NCBI RefSeq assembly: GCF_001463745.1
Contig: NZ_BBWJ01000008.1
Location: 1-63,329 of the forward strand
Reading direction: 5' to 3'
DNA from: Aureimonas sp. AU22
Lineage (GTDB): Bacteria > Pseudomonadota > Alphaproteobacteria > Rhizobiales > Rhizobiaceae
DNA: 63,329 bases
Shown here: positions 27,194 to 40,550 of the stretch, in pieces
Numbering within the stretch: position 1 is the first letter of the stretch
How the letters are laid out: each line of letters begins with the position of its first letter
Position numbers and translations under genes: made by a program
The notes under the pieces: model-generated
Told to the model about the DNA's origin: nothing
Databases searched by the model: none
Seen by the model: the letters and a program-made list of their open reading frames with translations, nothing else

Positions 27194-27214
27194 CAGGGAT
27201 ACTCGTCATACCAG
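27194..27214. promoter_or_regulatory. GntR/FadR-type operator before apnO (imperfect copy)
   Basis: CAGGGAT-N7-ATACCAG matches the perfect repeat CTGGTAT-N7-ATACCAG at 31825-31845 in arm sequence (right arm identical, left arm five of seven) and in spacing. It lies 58 bases before the apnO start codon. Both copies are followed within five to seven bases by GAGTTCGCGTCTTC. This supports common control of the two gene groups. Confidence 0.65.
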
Positions 27215-27272
27215 TTGACGAGTTCGCGTCTTCGTGCGACGCCAGGGGAGTTCCAATTGCGAGGATTCCTCC

Positions 27273-28100
27273 ATGACATCGATCGCCCTGTTCGGGGCCG
27301 GCGGCAAGATGGGCACACGCCTCGCCGGCAATCTCAAGGGATCGCGCTTCGACGTGCGCCACGTGGAGCGGTCCGAAGCCGGACGCGAGCGCCTGAAGAC
27401 CCATCTCGGTGTCGCGTGCGTGGACGAGGACGCGGCGCTGAACGGTGCCGAGGTCGTCGTTCTCGCCGTGCCCGATACCCTGATCGGCAAGGTCCTGTCC
27501 GGCATCGAGGCGAAGTTGAAACCCGGCACGATGGTGGTGATCCTCGATGCCGCGGCGCCCTTCGCCGGCCACCTCCCGGAGCGGTCGGACCTCACCTATT
27601 TCGTCACCCACCCCTGCCATCCGCCGATCTTCAACGACGAGACGGAAGCGGCCGCCAAGCGCGACTTCTTCGGCGGTGTCGCGGCCAAGCAGCACATCGT
27701 CTCCGCGCTGATGCAGGGACCGGACGAGGCCTACGCGCTCGGCGAGGAGATCGCCAAGGTGATCTGGGCGCCGGTGATGCGCTCGCATCGCATCACGGTG
27801 GAGCAGATGGCGCTTCTGGAGCCGGGACTGTCCGAGACGGTGACGGCCAGCCTCCTCGACGTGATGCGCGAGGCGATGGACGAAGTGGTTCGGCGCGGCG
27901 TGCCCAAGGAAGCCGCCCGCGACTTCCTGCTCGGCCACATGAACGTCCTCGGCGCGGTGATCTTCGAGGAAACGCCCGGCGTCTTCTCCGACGCCTGCAA
28001 CAAGGCGATCGAATTCGGCAAGCCGGCCCTGATGCGCGACGACTGGAAGCGCGTCTTCGAGCCGGACGAGCTGATGGCCTCCATCCGCCGCATCACCTGA
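27273..28100 (+). CDS. apnO: D-apionate oxidoisomerase
   Basis: 275 residues. Rossmann start MTSIALFGAGGKMGTRLAGN, NAD-binding VVVLAVPDTLIGKVL, then the distinctive YFVTHPCHPPIFNDE and a helical C-terminal domain of the phosphogluconate-dehydrogenase-like type. Members of this group in apiose clusters convert D-apionate with NAD+ to 3-oxo-isoapionate (oxidation with skeletal rearrangement). The function is inferred mainly from the cluster: apiose dehydrogenase, lactonase, DUF1537 kinase and a RuBisCO-like protein are all adjacent. Start at 27273 follows GAGGA. First gene of the cluster. Confidence 0.82.
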   Translation: MTSIALFGAGGKMGTRLAGNLKGSRFDVRHVERSEAGRERLKTHLGVACVDEDAALNGAEVVVLAVPDTLIGKVLSGIEAKLKPGTMVVILDAAAPFAGHLPERSDLTYFVTHPCHPPIFNDETEAAAKRDFFGGVAAKQHIVSALMQGPDEAYALGEEIAKVIWAPVMRSHRITVEQMALLEPGLSETVTASLLDVMREAMDEVVRRGVPKEAARDFLLGHMNVLGAVIFEETPGVFSDACNKAIEFGKPALMRDDWKRVFEPDELMASIRRIT

Positions 28101-28113
28101 TCCGGAGCGTCCC

Positions 28114-29142
28114 ATGAGCGAGCTACGCGGCGCCCTCGTCGGCTGCGGCTTCTTCGCCCGCAACCAGATGCACGCCTGGGAGGATATCCCGGGCGTCTCC
28201 ATCGTCGCGATCTGCGACCGCGACGAAGCGCGGCTCGCCGAGATGGGCGATGCGTTCGGCATCGCCCAGCGCTTCACCGATGCGGCCGCGATGCTGCGCG
28301 AGGTGCAGCCGGACTTCGTCGACATCGCCACCACCGCACCGAGCCACCGGGCGCTGGTGGAACTCGCGGCGTCCCTCAGGATACCCGCGATCTGCCAGAA
28401 GCCCTTCGCGCCGACGATGGACGACGCGCGCGCGATGGTCGCGGCCTGCGAGGCGGCCGGCGTGCCGCTGATGATCCACGAGAACTTCCGCTGGCAGTCG
28501 CCGATCCAGGCGGTGCGCCGGGTTCTGAGCGCCGGTGAGATCGGCGCGCCGTTCTTCGGCCGCGTCTCGTTCCGCTCGGCCTACGACGTCTATGCCGGCC
28601 AGCCCTATCTGGCGGAGGGCGAGCGCTTCATCATCGAGGACCTCGGCATCCACGCGCTCGACATCGCCCGCTTCCTGTTCGGCGACGTCTCGGCCATCAC
28701 CGCCCGCACCCAACGCGTGAACCCGAGGATCCGCGGCGAGGACGTCGCCACCATGCTGCTCGACCACGAGGCGGGTTTCTCCTCCGTGGTGGACTGCTCC
28801 TACGCGACGAAGCTGGAAACCGAGCGCTTCCCGCAGACGCTGGTCGAGATCGACGGTGCGCACGGCACCCTTCGGCTGGACGAGGGCTATCGCCTGACGG
28901 TGACGGCCCCGGGCGGCACCCGCGTCGAGGACGTCTCGCCGCCGCTCCTGCCGTGGGCCTCGCGTCCCTGGCACAACATCCAGGAGAGTGTGGCGCTGAT
29001 CCAGGCGCACTGGGTGGAAACGCTGCGCTCGGGGGTCGAACCCGATACGTCGGGCCGCGACAACCTCAAGACCTTCGCTCTCGTCGAGGCGGCCTACAGG
29101 AGCGCCGCGAGCCGCCTGACACTCGATCCGTCCGAGGTCTGA
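28114..29142 (+). CDS. apsD: Gfo/Idh/MocA oxidoreductase, probable D-apiose dehydrogenase
   Basis: 342 residues. The N-terminal NAD(P)-binding fold begins RGALVGCGFFARNQMHAW; DIATTAPSHRALVELA and the Lys motif ICQKPFAP (in place of the more common EKP) follow; then IHENFRWQSPIQ and the substrate domain with FIIEDLGIHALDIARFLFGD. Family members oxidise sugars at C1; in apiose clusters the enzyme makes D-apiono-lactone. It lies 13 bases after apnO with GGAG before the ATG, and the next gene begins two bases after its stop. The specific substrate is inferred from neighbours. Confidence 0.8.
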   Translation: MSELRGALVGCGFFARNQMHAWEDIPGVSIVAICDRDEARLAEMGDAFGIAQRFTDAAAMLREVQPDFVDIATTAPSHRALVELAASLRIPAICQKPFAPTMDDARAMVAACEAAGVPLMIHENFRWQSPIQAVRRVLSAGEIGAPFFGRVSFRSAYDVYAGQPYLAEGERFIIEDLGIHALDIARFLFGDVSAITARTQRVNPRIRGEDVATMLLDHEAGFSSVVDCSYATKLETERFPQTLVEIDGAHGTLRLDEGYRLTVTAPGGTRVEDVSPPLLPWASRPWHNIQESVALIQAHWVETLRSGVEPDTSGRDNLKTFALVEAAYRSAASRLTLDPSEV

Positions 29143-29144
29143 CC

Positions 29145-31070
29145 GTGGCGGACCCGGTGAAACTCTTCGGTACGCGCGAGGAAGCCGCTCCCGTCCGCCA
29201 CCTTCGGGCGGGGCAGCTCTGCGTGGACCTCGTCGCGGGCAATCTGCGTACGGTCCGCTTCGCCGGGGTCGAGGTGCTTCGCGCCGTCGGCTACGTCGTG
29301 CGCGACCGCGACTGGGGCACCTACGATCCGCCGATCCGCGATCTTGCGCTCGAGGAAGACGACGACCGGTTCCGCGTGCACTACCGGGCCGAGGTCGAGG
29401 CGCCGGACGGCGTACGCCTCCGCGTCGTCGCGTCGATCGAGGGGTCGGCTGACGGGACGCTCGGCTTCGCGGTCGAGGCCGTGACCGACGGGGCCTTCGA
29501 GACCAACCGTTGCGGCTTCTGCGTGCTTCATCCGATCGAGGGCAATGCCGGCGCGCCCGTCCGGGTCGAGCACACCGACGGCACCGTCGAGGACGCGCGC
29601 TTTCCCGATCATATCGAGCCCTGGCAGCCCTTCCAGGACATTCGATCGCTCGCCCACGAGCCGGTACCCGGCCTCCGCGTGACCTGTCGCCTCGAGGGCG
29701 ACGCTTTCGAGATGGAGGACCAGCGGGCCTGGTCCGACGCCTCCTACAAGACCTACGTGCGCCCCCTCGCCCGCCCCTGGCCCTACCGGTTGGAAGCGGG
29801 CAGACCGGACCGGCAGTCCGTGACCCTGCGAATCGCGGCGCAGGCGGGCTTCGCGCCGGACAGCGCCGACACGGCCCGCGGTCCCGTCGCGGTCCGTCTG
29901 GGGGCGCCGCTGCCCGAGCGCATGCCCCGCTTCGGCCTGGCCGTGGCGCCGGAGGACGCGCAGGCCGTTCTGGCGCTGCCCGCCCGGCTTCACGACCTCG
30001 CGCCCGCCTTCCTGCTGTTTCATTTCGACCCCCTGGCCGGCCACGGGGCAGACGCGCTGGAAGGTTTCGCCCGCATCGCCGCTCTCGCGCCCGAGGCCGA
30101 GTGCGCGCTGGAACTCGTGCTGCCGGGCCAGGACGATCCTGCGGCGGAGACCGCGCAGGCGGCACGGCTCATCGAGGCCTCGCCGTTCCGACCGCACACG
30201 ATCGTGGTCGGTCCTTCCGTGGATCGCCAATCGACGCCGCCGGGCAGCCAGTGGCCGGCCTGTCCGCCGCTCGAGGACGTGTATCGCGCCGCTCGCGCCG
30301 CCTTCCCGGGTGTCACGCTCGGCGGCGGCATGTTCAGCTATTTCACCGAGCTCAACCGCAAGCGCGTGCCGCTGGGTGATCTCGACTTCGTCACCCACGC
30401 GACCAACCCGATCGTCCATGCCGCCGACGATCTGTCGGTGATGCAGACGCTGGAGGCGATCCCCTTCATCGCGCGCTCGACCCGCGCCTTCGTCGGAAAC
30501 ACACCCTACCGCCTCGGTCCCACCACGATCGGCATGCGCCAGAACCCCTACGGTTCGCGCACCATGCCGAACCCGGAGGGCAAGCGCATGCCGATGGCGA
30601 ACGACGATCCGCGCGCTCGCGGTCTTTTCGGCGCGGCCTTTCTGGTCGGCTACGCCGCGCGGCTCGTCGGCGTCGGCGTCGAGGCCTGGGCGGGTGCGAG
30701 TCTGGCCGGCCCGCGCGGCCTGCTTCTGCCGGGGGGCGGCGTCGCACCGGCCTTCCACGTGGCCCGAGGGCTGGCCGCGCTCGGGGGCACCGGGCGCCTC
30801 GACCTGCAATCGACGACGCCGGGCGCAGTGGACGGCATCGCGGCAAGGCGGCCCGATGGCGGGCTCGAGATCTGGCTCGCCAATCTGACACCCGAGCCTC
30901 AGGACGTGGCGATCGAGGGCATCGGACCGGACGCCGCCGTCTCGCTCCTGGACGAGGAGGCCTTCGACGCGGCGGCGGACGGCGCGCTCCCGGCGGCACG
31001 GGCGAGCGACGGACGCCTCGTTCTGCCACCCTATGCCGTCCTGCGGCTCCTTGCGCCTCAGGCGCCCTGA
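29145..31070 (+). CDS. apnL: D-apionate lactonase
   Basis: 641 residues from a GTG at 29145, two bases after the apsD stop; this gives the N-terminus ADPVKLFGTREEAAPVRHLRAGQL, the natural beginning of the protein. It has no signal peptide or membrane span, so it acts in the cytoplasm. A beta-rich first half (WGTYDPPIRDLALEEDDDRF, CGFCVLHPIEG, FPDHIEPWQPFQDIRSL) is followed by a barrel-like second half (GGGMFSYFTELNRKRVP, FVTHATNPIVHAADD, GPTTIGMRQNPYGSRTMPN). These segments fit the apionolactonase family described with apiose pathways. It opens the lactone made by apsD to D-apionate. The 3' end overlaps the convergent regulator gene by 13 bases. Confidence 0.8.
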   Translation: MADPVKLFGTREEAAPVRHLRAGQLCVDLVAGNLRTVRFAGVEVLRAVGYVVRDRDWGTYDPPIRDLALEEDDDRFRVHYRAEVEAPDGVRLRVVASIEGSADGTLGFAVEAVTDGAFETNRCGFCVLHPIEGNAGAPVRVEHTDGTVEDARFPDHIEPWQPFQDIRSLAHEPVPGLRVTCRLEGDAFEMEDQRAWSDASYKTYVRPLARPWPYRLEAGRPDRQSVTLRIAAQAGFAPDSADTARGPVAVRLGAPLPERMPRFGLAVAPEDAQAVLALPARLHDLAPAFLLFHFDPLAGHGADALEGFARIAALAPEAECALELVLPGQDDPAAETAQAARLIEASPFRPHTIVVGPSVDRQSTPPGSQWPACPPLEDVYRAARAAFPGVTLGGGMFSYFTELNRKRVPLGDLDFVTHATNPIVHAADDLSVMQTLEAIPFIARSTRAFVGNTPYRLGPTTIGMRQNPYGSRTMPNPEGKRMPMANDDPRARGLFGAAFLVGYAARLVGVGVEAWAGASLAGPRGLLLPGGGVAPAFHVARGLAALGGTGRLDLQSTTPGAVDGIAARRPDGGLEIWLANLTPEPQDVAIEGIGPDAAVSLLDEEAFDAAADGALPAARASDGRLVLPPYAVLRLLAPQAP

Positions 31071-31771
31071 TGCTGGTAGAGATCGCGCGAGCGTTCGAGG
31101 TGGCGCACCATCGCGGCCTCCGCGCCGTCCGGGTCGCGGCGGGCGATGGCGTCGAGGATCTCCTCGTGCTCCAGAAGCGTGACGTTCTCCTTGCCGCTCC
31201 AGATCAGGAGTTCGTTGTGGTACTGGCGCAGCCAGCCGAGCATGGACTCGGCCACGGCCTCGAAGATCGGGTTGCCGGGCACCGCCGCAATTCGGGCATG
31301 GAAACGCATATCGATGCCGATGAACCGCTCGGGATCGCCAAGCGCCGCGCGCTGCTCCGCCAGGAAGGCCCCGAGCGCGTCGATGTCGGCGGGCTCCGCC
31401 CGCTCGGCCGCCTGGCGCACGATCCCGCGCTCGAAGAAGATGCGCGCTTCCTTCAGGTGGTCGAGCGCGGCGGGCGAGGTGGTCAGCATGATCTCCGCCG
31501 CCCGGTCGACCTGGCCGAACAGCGAGCGCGGCGTCACGTTCAGGACCTTGGCCCGCTCGCCGTGCGAGATGGCGAGCAACCCCATGCCGTTCAGCGCCTG
31601 CATCGCCTCGCGGATCGCCGGCCGGCCGACCCCGAAACGCTCCATCAGTTCGCGCTCGGACGGCATCTGGTCGCCGGCCTTCAGTTCGCCCGTCGTGATC
31701 ATCGACTTCAGGCGCTCGTAGACCTCGGTCGAGAGCTTGCGGCGAACGATCGGCTCGCTCGGCTGGGTCAT
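31058..31771 (-). CDS. GntR-family (FadR subfamily) transcriptional regulator
   Basis: 237 residues. The winged HTH (about 10-75) shows STEVYERLKSMITTGELKAGDQMPSERELMERFGVGRPAIREAMQ, with the classic GntR signature. The FCD effector domain (about 100-225) has the metal-binding Asp/His pattern in IGIDMRFHARIAAVPGNP and LLEHEEILDAIARRD. It lies between the two plus-strand halves of the apiose cluster and is the obvious candidate to bind the CTGGTAT-N7-ATACCAG repeats. The inducer is probably an acid intermediate such as apionate (inference). A longer in-frame region upstream is antisense to the RuBisCO-like gene. Confidence 0.88.
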   Translation of the reverse strand: MTQPSEPIVRRKLSTEVYERLKSMITTGELKAGDQMPSERELMERFGVGRPAIREAMQALNGMGLLAISHGERAKVLNVTPRSLFGQVDRAAEIMLTTSPAALDHLKEARIFFERGIVRQAAERAEPADIDALGAFLAEQRAALGDPERFIGIDMRFHARIAAVPGNPIFEAVAESMLGWLRQYHNELLIWSGKENVTLLEHEEILDAIARRDPDGAEAAMVRHLERSRDLYQHQGA

Positions 31772-31824
31772 GGATGACGTCCCCGCTGACGGTCGGCGCG
31801 TTGCGAAGGGCGAACGCGCCGACA

Positions 31825-31845
31825 CTGGTATGGAGACGATACCAG
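31825..31845. promoter_or_regulatory. GntR/FadR-type operator before oiaX
   Basis: CTGGTAT-GGAGACG-ATACCAG is a perfect seven-base inverted repeat with seven-base centre. It lies 53 bases upstream of the divergent GntR gene and 49 bases upstream of the RuBisCO-like gene, so one bound protein could control both directions. A related copy stands before apnO at 27194-27214. Confidence 0.75.
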
Positions 31846-31894
31846 ACCGGAGGAGTTCGCGTCTTCCCTTATGCGTCCAAAGGAAGTTTCCGAG

Positions 31895-33172
31895 ATGAGT
31901 GACGACATCGTCCTGACCTACCGCATCGAGACGCCCGGCAGCGTCGAGAAGCTGGCGGCGAAGATCGCGAGCGACCAGTCCACGGGCACCTTCGTGCCCC
32001 TGCCGGGCGAGACGCCGGAGCTGAAGGCGCGCGTCGCCGCCCGGGTCCTCGATGTACGAGCGCTGGAGCCCGTTGCAGAGCCCGCCTTCGGCCGCAGCCA
32101 TGACGACCTCGCCGCCCCGCGCGTCTTCCAGTGCGGCGAGGCCGACATCGCCTTTCCCATGGAGGCGATCGGCACCGACCTCGCCGCGCTGATGACGATC
32201 GCGATCGGGGGCACCTTCTCCATCAAGGGCTTCAGCGGCATCCGCGTCACCGGGCTGAAGCTTCCATCGGCGTTCGGCAAGGCCTGGCCGGGTCCGCAGT
32301 TCGGCATCGAGGGCTCGAAGCGCCTGACCGGCGTTTGCGGACGGCCGATCATCGGCACGATCGTGAAGCCCGCCCTGGGGCTCCGCCCGCCCGAAAGCGC
32401 TGACATGGTGAAGGAGCTGGTGGAGGCCGGCGTCGACTTCATCAAGGACGACGAGAAGCTGATGAGCCCGGCCTATTCGCCGCTGCCCGAGCGGGTGAAG
32501 GCGATCATGCCGGTGGTTCTCGACCACGAGCAGCGCACCGGCAAGAAGGTGATGGTGGCCTTCGGCATCACGGCCACCGACCCCGACGAGATGATGCGCA
32601 ACCACGACCTCGTGCTGGCGGCGGGGGGCAACGCCGCCGTCGTCAACATCAACTCGATCGGCATGGGCGCCATGGCCTTCCTGCGCCGGCGCTCGGGGCT
32701 GGTGCTGCATGCCCACCGCAACGGCTGGGATATCCTCACCCGCCATCCCGCGCTAGGGTTCGACTTCTCGGTCTACCAGACCTTCTGGCGACTGCTCGGC
32801 GTCGACCAGTTCCAGATCAACGGCATCGCCGCAAAATACTGGGAGCCGGACGCCTCGTTCCTGCGCTCCTATCACGACCTGTCGCAGCCGCTGTTCCACG
32901 AGGGCGACCAGCCGCTGCCAGTGGTCGGCTCCGGCCAGTGGGGCGGACAGGCACCCGCGACCTACGCTGCCGTTCGCTCCACGGACCTCCTTTATCTCTG
33001 CGGCGGCGGCGTCGTCAGCCATCCGATGGGACCGGCGGCGGGGGTCCGGGCCGTGCAGCAGGCCTGGGAGGCGGCCGTGGCCGGCATCGACCTTGCGGCC
33101 TACGCCGTCGATCACCCCGAGCTCGCCGCCTCGATCAAGACGTTCGGCGGCGCGGATTCCAAGGGAGCCTGA
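31895..33172 (+). CDS. oiaX: RuBisCO-like 3-oxo-isoapionate-4-phosphate decarboxylase
   Basis: 425 residues, a RuBisCO large-subunit homologue. Conserved positions: Lys158 in IVKPALGL, Lys184-Asp-Asp-Glu187 (the carbamylated Lys and metal ligands of RuBisCO), His274 in HAHRNG, Lys314 in IAAKYWEPD, VVGSGQWGG, and the phosphate loop LCGGGVVSHPMGP. In apiose clusters this group decarboxylates 3-oxo-isoapionate 4-phosphate to a tetrulose phosphate. True CO2 fixation is unlikely: there is no small subunit or phosphoribulokinase, and the context is sugar breakdown. Start ATG at 31895 has GGAAG upstream; an ATG at 31871 lies before the ribosome-binding site. Confidence 0.82.
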   Translation: MSDDIVLTYRIETPGSVEKLAAKIASDQSTGTFVPLPGETPELKARVAARVLDVRALEPVAEPAFGRSHDDLAAPRVFQCGEADIAFPMEAIGTDLAALMTIAIGGTFSIKGFSGIRVTGLKLPSAFGKAWPGPQFGIEGSKRLTGVCGRPIIGTIVKPALGLRPPESADMVKELVEAGVDFIKDDEKLMSPAYSPLPERVKAIMPVVLDHEQRTGKKVMVAFGITATDPDEMMRNHDLVLAAGGNAAVVNINSIGMGAMAFLRRRSGLVLHAHRNGWDILTRHPALGFDFSVYQTFWRLLGVDQFQINGIAAKYWEPDASFLRSYHDLSQPLFHEGDQPLPVVGSGQWGGQAPATYAAVRSTDLLYLCGGGVVSHPMGPAAGVRAVQQAWEAAVAGIDLAAYAVDHPELAASIKTFGGADSKGA

Positions 33173-33176
33173 ACCG

Positions 33177-34502
33177 ATGACCGCGCCTCTTCTCGCCTTC
33201 TACGGCGACGATCTCACCGGCTCGACCGACGTCATGGAATCGCTGTCCCTGCGCGGCATCGAGACGGTGCTCTTCACCGACCGGCCGACCGAGGCGCAAG
33301 CGGCCCGCTTCGCCGGCGCGCAGGCGATCGGCCTTGCCGGCACAAGCCGCAGCGAGACGCCGGCCTGGATGGACGAACACCTGCCCGCCGTCTTCGAATG
33401 GATGAAGGCGCTCGGCGCCAGGCTCACCCATTACAAGGTCTGCTCGACCTTCGATTCCAGTCCCCCCATCGGCTCGATCGGGCGGGCGGCCGAGATCGGA
33501 CGGCGCGTCTTCGGCGATCGGCCCGTGCCGCTCGTCGTCGGCGCGCCCCAGCTCAAGCGCTGGACGGCCTTCGGGAACCTCTTCGCCGCCTTCCGGGGCG
33601 AGACCTTTCGCATCGACCGCCATCCGGTGATGAGCCGTCATCCCGTGACACCGATGCGGGAAGCGGACCTGGCGCTGCATCTCGCCGCGCAGACATCGCT
33701 CGCCGTCGCCCTTCTCGACCATCTGGCGCTGACGGCCGAGGACGCCGACGCGCAAGCGGACGCGATCCTCGCCGCCGATCCCGGCCTCGTGCTGATCGAC
33801 GTCCTGAACGGGCAAACGCAGGAAGCGGCAGGGCGCCAGCTCGAACGGCTGCGGGAGGCCGGCTGCCGCTTCACGGTCGGCTCGTCGGGCGTCGAATACG
33901 CGCTGACGGCTCACTGGTCGAAGACGGGACGCATCGGCGCACCGGCCGAATTCGCGCAGCTCGCCCCGGTGGAGCGCATCAGCGTCGTCTCGGGAAGCTG
34001 CTCTCCCACCACCGAGCGCCAGATCCGCCATGCCGGCGCGAACGGCTTCGAGCCGATCGACTTCGACCCGCGCGCCTTCGTCACCGGCGACACGGCGGCG
34101 GTGGAAGCCGTCGGATCACGCGCCGAGGCGGCGCTGCGGGCCGGACGCTCGGTGATCGTCCACACCGCCATGGGGCCGGAGAGCGACCTCGGGGACGAGT
34201 TGTCGGGAACGGACGGCGCGCGCCATGCGATCGGCCGGGGCCTTGGGGACCTCCAGGCCGCGCTCGTGCGCCGGCTCGGGCTCCGCCGCGCCGTGATCGC
34301 GGGTGGCGACACGTCGAGCCACGCCTTGCGCCAGCTCGGCATCCACGCGCTCACGACCCGCCTGCCGCTGCCCGACACGCCGGGCTCGCCCGTCGCCCTC
34401 GCCCACAGCGACGACCCCGTCTTCGACGGGCTGGAGATCGCGCTGAAGGGCGGTCAGGTCGGGGGCGACGACTACTTTTCTCGCGTGCGCGACGGGGGAT
34501 GA
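33177..34502 (+). CDS. oiaK: 3-oxo-isoapionate kinase (DUF1537 / four-carbon acid sugar kinase family)
   Basis: 441 residues. The N-terminal sugar-binding domain starts LLAFYGDDLTGSTDVMESL, with the Asp-Asp signature of DUF1537 kinases, and continues with LTHYKVCSTFDSSPPIGSIG. The C-terminal nucleotide-binding domain contains VVSGSCSPTTERQI, AVIAGGDTSSHALRQLG and FDGLEIALKGGQVGGDDYF. It phosphorylates the product of apnO, making the substrate of oiaX. It begins four bases after the oiaX stop, with AAGGGAG before the ATG, so the pair is co-expressed. Substrate assignment is by cluster context. Confidence 0.83.
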   Translation: MTAPLLAFYGDDLTGSTDVMESLSLRGIETVLFTDRPTEAQAARFAGAQAIGLAGTSRSETPAWMDEHLPAVFEWMKALGARLTHYKVCSTFDSSPPIGSIGRAAEIGRRVFGDRPVPLVVGAPQLKRWTAFGNLFAAFRGETFRIDRHPVMSRHPVTPMREADLALHLAAQTSLAVALLDHLALTAEDADAQADAILAADPGLVLIDVLNGQTQEAAGRQLERLREAGCRFTVGSSGVEYALTAHWSKTGRIGAPAEFAQLAPVERISVVSGSCSPTTERQIRHAGANGFEPIDFDPRAFVTGDTAAVEAVGSRAEAALRAGRSVIVHTAMGPESDLGDELSGTDGARHAIGRGLGDLQAALVRRLGLRRAVIAGGDTSSHALRQLGIHALTTRLPLPDTPGSPVALAHSDDPVFDGLEIALKGGQVGGDDYFSRVRDGG

Positions 34503-37486: not shown

Positions 37487-38467
37487 ATGTCGCCGATTTG
37501 GAAGGGGCTCCTGGCCTCGATCGCCGTTCTCGCCGCTGCGTCCACGGCCTCGGCCCAGGCCGACTATCCCACCCAGCCGATCACGATCGTGGTGCCCTTC
37601 TCCGCCGGCGGCCCGACCGACACCGTCACCCGGCTGATCGCCCAGACCATGACGGCGGAACTCGGCCAGCAGGTGCTGGTGCAGAACGTCGGCGGTGCCG
37701 GCGGAACGCTCGGCGCCGGTCAGGTGGCCCAGGCGAAGCCCGACGGCTACACGCTGCTTCTGCATCATATCGGCATGTCGACGGCTCCGACCCTCTACCG
37801 TCAGCTCGCCTTCGACCCGCTGAAGGCCTTCGCCCCGATCGGCCAGGTGACCTCCGTGCCGATGACGATCGTGGCGCGCAAGGATTTCGAGCCGACCGAT
37901 GCGGCCAGCCTCGTCGCCTACCTCAAGGAGAACGGCGCCGACACGACCTATGCCCATGCCGGCATCGGCTCGGCCTCGCACCTGTGCGGCATGCTTCTCC
38001 AGGAAGCGGTCGGCGTGCAGATGATCACCGTGCCCTACCAGGGCGCCGCGCCGGCCATGACCGACATCGTCGGCAGCCAGGTGGATCTCCTGTGCGACCA
38101 GACCACCAACACGACCAACCAGATCAAGGCCGGCGAAGTGAAGGCCTATGCGGTGACCTCGCCCGAACGCCTCGCCTCCCTCCCCGACCTGCCGACCACG
38201 AAGGAGGCCGGGCTCGACAAGTTGCAGATCGGCGTCTGGCACGGGCTCTACGCACCGGCGGGCACGGACCCGGCGATCGTCGCCAAGCTGGAAGGCGCGC
38301 TGCAGAAGGCGCTCGCCGACGAAACGGTGAAGGCGCGCTTCGCCGAGCTCGGCACCGCGCCGGCGACCGCCGAGGAAGCCACGCCCGCCTCGCTCCAGAA
38401 CCAGCTGACCTCCCAGATCGAGCTCTGGCGCCCGATCATCCAGGCGGCCGGCACCTACGCCGACTGA
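37487..38467 (+). CDS. tctC: Tripartite tricarboxylate-type transporter, substrate-binding protein
   Basis: 326 residues. The signal peptide (about 1-23, STASA cleavage) is followed by the Bug/TctC family fold: YPTQPITIVVPFSAGGPTDTVTRLIA, VQNVGGAGGTLGAGQVAQAKPDGYTLLLHHIG, VPYQGAAPAMTDIVGSQVDLLCD, and AYAVTSPERLASLPDLPTTKEAG. A periplasmic receptor that passes an organic acid to TctAB. Ligand unknown; such proteins bind a wide range of carboxylates. Closely spaced with tctB and tctA. Confidence 0.92.
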   Translation: MSPIWKGLLASIAVLAAASTASAQADYPTQPITIVVPFSAGGPTDTVTRLIAQTMTAELGQQVLVQNVGGAGGTLGAGQVAQAKPDGYTLLLHHIGMSTAPTLYRQLAFDPLKAFAPIGQVTSVPMTIVARKDFEPTDAASLVAYLKENGADTTYAHAGIGSASHLCGMLLQEAVGVQMITVPYQGAAPAMTDIVGSQVDLLCDQTTNTTNQIKAGEVKAYAVTSPERLASLPDLPTTKEAGLDKLQIGVWHGLYAPAGTDPAIVAKLEGALQKALADETVKARFAELGTAPATAEEATPASLQNQLTSQIELWRPIIQAAGTYAD

Positions 38468-38492
38468 CGCTCGCGCCCGTCCATCGTTGAAA

Positions 38493-38525
38493 GGACCGGT
38501 CGCGGCTGAAACCGCCGGCCGGTCC
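38493..38525 (+). other. Intercistronic hairpin between tctC and tctB
   Basis: GGACCGG and CCGGTCC form a seven-base stem enclosing an inner GCGG/CCGC pair, in the 93-base spacer after tctC. It has no T-run. Such hairpins often protect the upstream message so that the binding protein is made in excess over the permease. Confidence 0.5.
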
Positions 38526-38560
38526 GCAGGCCTACCACAGGGTTCGGGGGGACCATCCGC

Positions 38561-39034
38561 ATGCATGCATCCGAAGGCGTGAAATCGCATCGCGACCTGA
38601 TCGCGGGACTGATCTTCGTCGCGATCGCCGCCGGCTTCGCCTTCGAAGCGTCGAACTACGACATGGGCCGGGCCATCCGCATGGGACCGGGCTTCATTCC
38701 CATGACGCTCGCCATCCTCCTGGCCATCCTCGGGATCGCGATCATCGTCTCGGGGATGAAGAAGGACGAGCGGGTCGAACGAACGCCGGTTCCCTGGAAG
38801 GGGATCTTGCTGATCCTCGCCGCCCTCGTGATCTTCGGCGAGTTCGGATCGCTCCTCGGCCTCGTGCCGGTGGTGTTCATCGGCACGGCGATCGTGGCGC
38901 TCGCCTCGGCGCGCAACACCGTCGTCTCGGCGCTCTCCATCGCGCTCTGCATGTCGGCCCTGTGCTGGCTGGTCTTCAAGGTCGGCCTCGGCATCACCCT
39001 GCCGACCTTCGGCCCCCTCCTGACCTTCTCCTGA
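38561..39034 (+). CDS. tctB: Tripartite transporter small membrane subunit
   Basis: 157 residues with four membrane spans (LIAGLIFVAIAAGFAFEA; GFIPMTLAILLAILGIAIIVSG; GILLILAALVIFGEF to VVFIGTAIVALASA; SIALCMSALCWLVFKVGLGI). Family features include GPGFIPMTLA near the N-terminus and a C-terminal LP.FGP pattern. It partners tctA in the inner membrane. Ten bases separate its stop from tctA. Confidence 0.88.
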   Translation: MHASEGVKSHRDLIAGLIFVAIAAGFAFEASNYDMGRAIRMGPGFIPMTLAILLAILGIAIIVSGMKKDERVERTPVPWKGILLILAALVIFGEFGSLLGLVPVVFIGTAIVALASARNTVVSALSIALCMSALCWLVFKVGLGITLPTFGPLLTFS

Positions 39035-39044
39035 GGCGCGCTCC

Positions 39045-40550
39045 ATGGAACTCCTGTCCCATCTCGCCCTCGGCTTCGAGACGGCGCTCACCCCCGTCAA
39101 CGTCTTCTGGTGCTTCGTCGGCGTGCTTCTGGGCACCCTGGTCGGCGTCCTGCCCGGCATCGGGCCGACGGCGACCATCGCGATGCTCTTGCCGATCACC
39201 TTCACCTTCTCGCCGGTGACGGCGCTGATCATGCTGTCGGGCATCTACTACGGCGCCCAGTACGGCGGCTCGACGACCGCGATCCTCATCAACCTGCCGG
39301 GCGAAAGTTCCTCGGCGGTGACGGCGATCGACGGCTACCAGATGGCAAGACAGGGGCGAGCCGGCACCGCGCTCGCCACGGCCGCGCTCGGCTCCTTCTT
39401 CGCCGGTTCGGTCGCGACGCTGCTGCTCGCCATCGCCGCCCCACCGCTTGCGCGCGTCGCCCTTCAGTTCGGCGCACCCGAATATTTCGCCCTCATCGTT
39501 CTCGGGCTCCTCGTCTCGATCTCGCTCGCCCACGGCTCCATCGTGAAGGCGCTCGCGATGATCCTGCTGGGCCTCTTGCTCGGAACGGTGGGCCAGGACA
39601 TCTACACCGGCACGCCGCGCTTCACCTTCGGCCAGCTCGAGCTCTACCAGGGCATCAACTTCGTCTCGATCGCGGTCGGCGTCTTCGGTGTCGCCGAGAT
39701 CTTCCGCAATCTCGAGAACGAGACGACGCGCGAGGTGGGCGTCAAGAAGGTGGCCGGCCTCTGGCTCACGAAAGACGACTTCCGCCGCATCGTCGGTCCG
39801 GTCCTGCGCGGCACCGCGCTCGGCTCCATCCTCGGCGTGCTGCCCGGCGGCGGCCACGTCCTGTCGTCCTTCGCCTCCTACTCGATGGAAAAGAACCTCG
39901 CCAAGGACAAGTCGGAGTTCGGCAAGGGGGCGATCCAGGGCGTCGCGGGTCCCGAAAGCGCCAACAACGCGGCCGCCCAGACCTCGTTCATCCCGCTCCT
40001 GACCCTCGGCATCCCCGCCCATCCGGTGATGGCGCTGATCGTCGGCGCCTTCATCCTCCAGGGCATCACGCCCGGCCCCAACGTCATCAACACGCAGCCC
40101 GCCCTCTTCTGGGGCATCATCGCGTCGATGTGGATCGGCAACGTCCTCCTCGTCATCCTGAACCTGCCGCTGATCGGCATCTGGGTGAAGATGCTGACGA
40201 TCCCCTACCGCATCCTCTTCCCCGCCATCGTGCTGTTCGCCGCCATCGGCTGCTACTCGATCAACAACAACCCGTTCGACGTCTATGCGATCGGCGTCTT
40301 CGGCGTCCTTGGATATGTCCTCATCCGCCTCGGCTGCGAGCCGGCGCCGCTGCTGCTCGGCTTCGTGCTGGGGCCGCTTCTCGAGGAGCACCTGCGCCGC
40401 GCCATGATCATCTCGCGCGGCAACGCCATGGTGTTCCTGGAGCGGCCGATCTCCGCCTCGCTGCTGGCGCTCGGCCTCGCCTGCGTCGTCTTCGCGCTCC
40501 TGCCCTCGATCCGCAACAAGCGCAAGGAGGTCTTCGTCGAGGACGACTGA
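39045..40550 (+). CDS. tctA: Tripartite transporter large membrane subunit
   Basis: 501 residues, about 12 membrane spans. Signature segments: VGVLPGIGPTATIAMLLPITF near the N-terminus, IYYGAQYGGSTTAILINLPGE, and the repeat-like IQGVAGPESANNAAAQTSFIPLLTLGIPAHPVMA in the middle, all typical of TctA. It forms the ion-coupled permease for the ligand delivered by TctC. Gene order C-B-A is standard. The cytoplasmic C-terminus is short. Confidence 0.93.
   Translation: MELLSHLALGFETALTPVNVFWCFVGVLLGTLVGVLPGIGPTATIAMLLPITFTFSPVTALIMLSGIYYGAQYGGSTTAILINLPGESSSAVTAIDGYQMARQGRAGTALATAALGSFFAGSVATLLLAIAAPPLARVALQFGAPEYFALIVLGLLVSISLAHGSIVKALAMILLGLLLGTVGQDIYTGTPRFTFGQLELYQGINFVSIAVGVFGVAEIFRNLENETTREVGVKKVAGLWLTKDDFRRIVGPVLRGTALGSILGVLPGGGHVLSSFASYSMEKNLAKDKSEFGKGAIQGVAGPESANNAAAQTSFIPLLTLGIPAHPVMALIVGAFILQGITPGPNVINTQPALFWGIIASMWIGNVLLVILNLPLIGIWVKMLTIPYRILFPAIVLFAAIGCYSINNNPFDVYAIGVFGVLGYVLIRLGCEPAPLLLGFVLGPLLEEHLRRAMIISRGNAMVFLERPISASLLALGLACVVFALLPSIRNKRKEVFVEDD

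Follow-up and report, generated by a model that had tools for sequence, protein, structure and literature searches.

A gene cluster of Aureimonas sp. AU22 raises the question of whether this alphaproteobacterium breaks down D-apiose and D-apionate by means of a RuBisCO-like decarboxylase, and of how much of the route the cluster itself encodes. The stretch of DNA analysed, called here the window, is the 63,329-nucleotide contig NZ_BBWJ01000008.1 (contig C8), part of a genome of 4.63 Mb in 85 contigs. A sequence-only reading had placed a complete apiose cluster, split by a regulator, at positions 27,194 to 34,502. The cluster is real: six genes fill positions 27,273 to 34,502, each lies within an open reading frame, and all belong to the families proposed. 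The order given for the enzymes is right as a metabolic order; the physical order is apnO-apsD-apnL, regulator, oiaX, kinase. With a probability of about 0.9, the locus comprises a pair of operons, forming two arms, for the catabolism of D-apiose and D-apionate by the OiaX route, assisted by an unlinked module on contig C14, a NanR-like repressor and a transporter on contig C4.

The RuBisCO-like protein and its partner enzymes

The gene oiaX, coding for a putative 3-oxo-isoapionate-4-phosphate decarboxylase, is found on the plus strand and ends at position 33,172. Of its two possible starts, 31,895 is likelier than 31,871, because the nearest relatives are mostly 422-430 amino acids in length and the motif AAGGAAG precedes that ATG. 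The product passes the curated cut-off of the OiaX model NF042437 (748.7 bits against 700). Only 19 of 249 genomes of the order match above this cut-off, the lowest score, 748.5, being that of the window itself, and the next listed match reaches 465.7. The closest OiaX proteins are from Aureimonas, namely Aureimonas sp. Leaf324 (90% identity) and A. flava and A. phyllosphaerae (91%).

RuBisCO-like proteins (RLPs) are split by a tree of 62 proteins into three clades. As the outgroup branches are long, reliance is placed on the separation of the clades and not on the root. The window protein falls in clade A (OiaX; 18 rows, support 100/99), which includes Rhizobium rhizogenes NBRC 13257. Clade B (29 rows, support 99/85) comprises proteins often adjoining ApnO, and clade C (13 rows, support 100/100) hosts PDB entry 3nwr and a second protein of this same genome. 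In the phylogeny check set beforehand, the window protein was not placed with MtnW or with isomerising RLPs. The metal ligands Lys192-Asp194-Glu195 and the catalytic lysines Lys166 and Lys322 are conserved in the window protein and in all 18 clade A rows, which also share, without exception, KPA, Gln315, Asn317 and SGQW. Clade B features KPS (29/29), His at position 315 (28/29) and Thr or Ser in place of the Trp of SGQW (28/29); clade C features KPN, His, His and SGQW (13/13). The Lys-Asp-Glu ligands are kept in all clade A and clade C rows, and in 26 of the 29 clade B rows.

Three clade B rows have the metal ligand Glu replaced by Ala and the His of HAHR by Asp, as directly seen in locus L165. 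Loci L165, L166 and L170 belong to one clade B branch and to one family, and have no apiose query genes nearby. In a single genome (locus L160), about 15 kb separate an OiaX cluster from an RLP of the other type that is linked to ApnO.

Agrobacterium radiobacter K84 is presumably close to R. rhizogenes. The review PMC6302742 ascribes decarboxylation and transcarboxylation/hydrolysis of 3-oxo-isoapionate 4-phosphate to RLPs found in A. radiobacter K84 and Xanthobacter autotrophicus. Clade B plausibly corresponds to the OiaT type, in a comparison that included no X. autotrophicus sequence. The early proposal of a RuBisCO-like decarboxylase of the OiaX type agrees with both the model cut-off and the clade, the decarboxylation itself being predicted from sequence.

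The left arm is made of three plus-strand genes. The first, apnO (27,273 to 28,100; 275 amino acids), encodes a probable D-apionate oxidoisomerase, so named for its match to PF16896 (PGDH_C, 251.8 bits), for its best PDB match (5t57, 437.6 bits) and for synteny. It is followed by apsD (28,114 to 29,142; 342 amino acids), coding for a probable D-apiose dehydrogenase of the Gfo/Idh/MocA type (PF01408/PF22725). The best PDB match of ApsD is the 5uhw group with 527 bits, the next reaching 75.6. Database titles call the 5uhw group only 'Oxidoreductase protein'; it is taken here to be an A. radiobacter oxidoreductase studied with ligands of the apiose pathway.

The third gene, apnL (29,145 to 31,070; 641 amino acids, GTG start), codes for a predicted D-apionate lactonase passing the curated cut-off of NF049900 (845.2 bits against 750). 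No Pfam family was matched by ApnL in the Pfam search. In an AlphaFold2 model (pLDDT, the predicted local confidence score, of 87), a fold search assigned residues 244-641 to a glycoside-hydrolase-like fold; the predicted fold has no conserved glutamates at the usual catalytic strands. No apiosidase title is found among the fold matches listed (50 per list), an absence that excludes nothing. A glycosidase-type fold predicted for a lactonase may prove of greater value than the cluster itself.

The right arm consists of oiaX and, on the same strand, of a DUF1537 kinase gene (33,177 to 34,502; 441 amino acids, PF07005 and PF17042), whose product is a probable 3-oxo-isoapionate kinase (OiaK). The regulator gene is located between the arms on the minus strand (31,058 to 31,771; 237 amino acids). 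It is convergent with apnL, and the 3' ends of the two overlap by 13 bases. The start codons are ATG at 31,771 for the regulator and ATG at 33,177 for the kinase; in the scans, the two were used as 31,058-31,777 and 33,174-34,502, i.e. two and one residues longer, respectively.

A scan of a species-genome collection returned 466 relatives, the best 80 of which were used for synteny counts. As short sequences and contig ends limit some of these loci, presence counts are lower bounds. Within about 10 kb of OiaX the regulator and the kinase were each found in 79 loci, ApsD in 74, ApnL in 72 (68 under stricter coverage) and ApnO in 67, the ApnO homologues being 73-96% identical. Regulator (minus strand), oiaX and kinase (both plus strand) follow each other in that order within 1.4 kb in 77 of the 80 loci; in one of these (L070) isomerase genes sit between oiaX and the kinase. 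This synteny is far beyond chance.

Steps encoded outside the cluster

The reactions of the pathway were reportedly worked out by Carter and colleagues in 2018 and are said to have EC (Enzyme Commission) entries. ApsD would oxidise D-apiose to D-apionolactone, which ApnL would open. ApnO would then move a hydroxymethyl group and oxidise the product to 3-oxo-isoapionate, the substrate to be phosphorylated by the DUF1537 kinase, and decarboxylation by OiaX would yield L-erythrulose 1-phosphate. This product needs the erythrulose-phosphate isomerases LerI and DerI, neither of which is encoded among the genes of the locus. Also a sugar ATP-binding cassette (ABC) transporter is absent, and the cluster is not complete as had been supposed. 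Candidates for all of them are found on other contigs.

Two genes of the triosephosphate isomerase (TIM) family and two of the RpiB family are present in the genome. One TIM and one RpiB-type gene are located on contig C14, together with genes for a transketolase, a class II aldolase and a regulator with a sugar-binding domain. The C14 RpiB-type protein passes the DerI model NF051858 (269.5 against 240), which is failed by the RpiB-type protein encoded on contig C32 (120.2). The second TIM-type protein as LerI, DerI, the transketolase and the aldolase would convert the product of OiaX to D-erythrose 4-phosphate and feed it into the pentose phosphate pathway.

Relatives of the C14 TIM or of DerI occur in 23 of the 80 OiaX loci (15 have both), several directly after the kinase, against none of 28 clade B loci (Fisher p 0.0008, not corrected for kinship). 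DerI was also surveyed in 68 of the 249 genomes, namely every one of the 50 with an RLP match plus 18 from the 199 others. It is found over cut-off in 18 of 19 OiaX genomes, in none of 31 featuring other RLPs only, and in none of 18 lacking RLPs, counts that are not independent because OiaX genomes cluster in certain families. Within the family to which the window belongs, DerI is present in 5 of 5 OiaX genomes versus 0 of 5. The coupling of OiaX to DerI across genomes supports the decarboxylase assignment by a way other than enzymology.

The substrate-binding protein (SBP) of a sugar ABC operon was identified in 60 of 81 sequences (the 80 loci and the window), usually with genes for a DUF2291 protein, an ATPase and a permease adjoining. 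It was not found in the window or in loci L011-L013, which share a left flank with fadB and a lexA-like gene. An operon of this composition lies on contig C4. Its SBP is 91% identical to that of A. ureilytica, and is accompanied by a DUF2291 protein, an ATPase (86%) and a permease (88%). Comparison with relatives suggests that the ABC operon moved out of the cluster, and the C4 transporter is probably part of the same regulon. The C4 SBP matches 5ibq/4ry0 with 499 bits; 4ry0 is Rhizobium etli RHE_PF00037 (80% identical), titled a ribose transporter SBP with no ligand named. Both entries are presumed to be D-apiose-binding proteins, an identity confirmed neither by database titles nor by a paper mentioning 5ibq. 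The predicted model of the C4 SBP is poor (pLDDT 61.9), and no structural claim rests on it.

A TctC-TctB-TctA transporter is found 3 kb downstream of the cluster. Some Aureimonas relatives retain it, whether or not their locus has an ABC operon. These genes (37,487 to 40,550) were set aside as apiose transporter, as a minus-strand GH15 gene and a gene judged by eye to be cold-shock-like lie between them and the kinase gene, and the transporter is also present in L015 and L024, relatives whose locus includes the ABC transporter.

Growth on rhamnogalacturonan II or apiogalacturonan, suggested by the sequence-only reading, finds no support. A search for PF13204 (Apiosidase), the one apiosidase family looked for, gave no match in the genome. 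This result would fit better with a cell that takes up apiose or apionate set free by other organisms than with attack on wall polymers.

Regulator and operators

The regulator features the PF00392 and PF07729 domains. It is of the FCD/GntR family; the FadR type proposed earlier is not retained, since the subfamily model passed is that of NanR (NF003011, 332.7 against a cut-off of 260).

Operators were searched for with a matrix trained on the gap between regulator and oiaX of 76 related loci, with the window left out. The top site of the window, with 19.8 bits, is located upstream of apnO (plus strand, 27,194 to 27,214; CAGGGATACTCGTCATACCAG), and is followed by TTGACG, a possible -35 box. 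The second, with 18.3 bits, lies between regulator and oiaX (31,825 to 31,845, plus strand), and is a palindrome, CTGGTAT-N7-ATACCAG. The third-ranked site in the 63 kb reaches 5.8 bits, and the best of 20 mononucleotide shuffles 12.7. Among relatives, a site of at least 12 bits is present in 74 of 77 regulator-oiaX gaps, from which the matrix itself was derived. Of the 65 apnO loci (out of 67) with enough sequence, 45 also have such a site in the 250 bases before apnO; none of 65 stretches taken inside apnO has one, a control that is not ideal because the stretches are coding. In four Aureimonas loci (L016, L019, L022, L042) apnO is preceded by the ABC operon, and the operator stands in front of that operon instead. 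The only exact TGGTAT-N7-ATACCA of the genome is that starting at 31,826. The claim of operators on both arms is thus sustained by rank in the window and by conservation in relatives.

Each operator is followed by a copy of the 14-mer GAGTTCGCGTCTTC, at 27,220 to 27,233 and at 31,853 to 31,866 (plus strand), and the genome has no further exact copy. Relatives do not generally keep it: of 16 Aureimonas-group loci examined, two have the core GCGTCTTC less than 100 bases before oiaX and none has it before apnO. A 15.5-bit matrix match at L008:3191, before an unannotated open reading frame, was not taken as a member of the regulon.

In E. coli, NanR recognises GGTATA repeats in DNA and binds them less tightly in the presence of its sugar (PMC8012715). 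The regulator of the window resembles it in family (FCD/GntR) and in the GGTAT half-site; the site of the E. coli protein is a (GGTATA)3 repeat (PMC8012715), whereas those described here are inverted repeats. No direct GGTATA repeat lies at these sites beside the apiose genes. The protein may therefore work like NanR, and is not filed as a sialic-acid NanR. By analogy, the regulator would bind both palindromes and repress both arms until released by a metabolite of the pathway.

Competing explanations and known systems

Several results weigh against the proposed pathway and its control. ApsD and ApnO match no NCBIfam model above its cut-off in the NCBIfam search. The kinase finds in OiaK (NF042436) its closest model, and scores 461 bits, below the cut-off of 700; the designation oiaK holds as to DUF1537 family and nearest model, fails the curated threshold, and rests on context. 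Scores range from 442 to 503 for the OiaX-adjacent kinases of seven relatives, one of them R. rhizogenes, and from 541 to 582 for three kinases adjoining the other apiose-linked RLP. As all eleven scored kinases of apiose-type clusters miss the cut-off, the miss says nothing special about that of the window. The C14 TIM, about 3.4 kb from DerI, passes the plain triosephosphate isomerase model (362.9 against 293), and no LerI model is found among its NCBIfam matches, so that the LerI role is one we infer. Among the 19 OiaX genomes, the DerI match of G247 is weak (144.5) and that of G149 borderline (239.8 against 240); G205, which has other RLPs and no OiaX, reaches 172.3.

As for the operators, a 12-bit site is missing upstream of apnO in 20 of 65 relatives, among which L011 (5.2) and L013 (9.3), and a genome search for the palindrome that tolerates up to two mismatches shows no enrichment (14 matches per strand versus 20 in the reversed control). 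The 16-base pattern TCRTYATACCAGTTGA, with at most one mismatch, occurs at two genome sites only, before apnO and before the C4 ABC operon, and never in the reversed control, but was written after both sites had been seen. Before the C4 operon the palindrome is incomplete: the best matrix score is 2.6 and the left half-site is lost; the two upstream regions share only a half-site and TTGACGA. Because the pattern is post hoc and that half-site is lost, shared control of apnO and the C4 operon is likely only.

It might be thought that the RLP is a transcarboxylase/hydrolase of the OiaT type, and that the pathway ends in what are presumably 3-phosphoglycerate and glycolate. Partner genes are similar, ApnO being found in 20 and an OiaK-like kinase in 25 of the 28 clade B loci; membership in clade A, the score above the OiaX cut-off, the KPA, Gln315 and SGQW signatures, and the fact that DerI tracks OiaX and not clade B make this assignment very improbable. 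A methionine-salvage enzyme (MtnW), or another known isomerising RLP, would belong to the same superfamily, but has next to no probability, as two MtnW models give 88.8 and 129.5 bits against the 748.7 of OiaX, the tree contradicts it too, and no salvage gene is found among the ten neighbours scanned.

A different possibility concerns the substrate. D-apionate, or some other sugar acid of branched or 3-oxo type, could be the main substrate of the cluster and free apiose a minor one, and the lack of a specific model for the Gfo/Idh/MocA protein ApsD, the location of the ABC transporter outside the cluster in this lineage and the missing PF13204 match would all fit. ApsD and ApnL are however kept in most loci, as reported above, and the C4 SBP resembles proteins for which D-apiose binding is presumed, in spite of the ribose transporter title. 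This use of the cluster is rather unlikely, and catabolism of both D-apiose and D-apionate through an OiaX-type decarboxylase is the reading supported by models, clade, residues, synteny and DerI co-occurrence.

The enzyme set is presumably the same as in A. radiobacter K84. The OiaX of the window is 72% identical to that of R. rhizogenes NBRC 13257, taken as a near relative of K84. Unlike K84, the window has no ABC transporter in the cluster, LerI and DerI are unlinked, and apnO-apsD-apnL are contiguous. The D-apiose/OiaX pathway of K84 (Carter et al. 2018) is known here through PMC6302742, and the pathway and its enzymes are already in print. Rhodobacteraceae strain LCG007 has the same five enzymes by EC number, the likeness to the window resting on these numbers and not on sequence, and is described in PMC11747546 as growing on D-apiose as sole carbon source. 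The cluster of Aureimonas ureilytica (L016) has the same genes and order, with an OiaX 82% identical to that of the window; it hosts an ABC transporter between operator and apnO, which the window and L011-L013 do not. Among the papers searched, none pairs Aureimonas with apiose.

The second RLP of this genome is a member of clade C, as PDB 3nwr, and is encoded on contig C58 (G000:C58:68969-70204, L007:16549-17814; neighbours L007:11783-19079). The C58-type set includes a LacI-type regulator, a TRAP transporter, a VOC-family protein, the RLP and a DUF1537 kinase. Seven clade C loci were compared, six of 35 fetched and that of the window's genome: LacI, DctP, VOC and kinase genes are present in all, DctM in six, and ApnO, ApsD or ApnL in none. 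It is somewhat probable that the same genome runs two RLP pathways, the C58 genes forming a kinase-plus-RLP route for a different sugar acid imported by TRAP. No paper on a C58-type RLP cluster was found among those searched. This possible second pathway may be worth more than the apiose cluster.

For Aureimonas, the findings support an OiaX route of apiose catabolism and delineate a probable control layout, in which one regulator would serve two arms and a transporter located elsewhere would share a control element.

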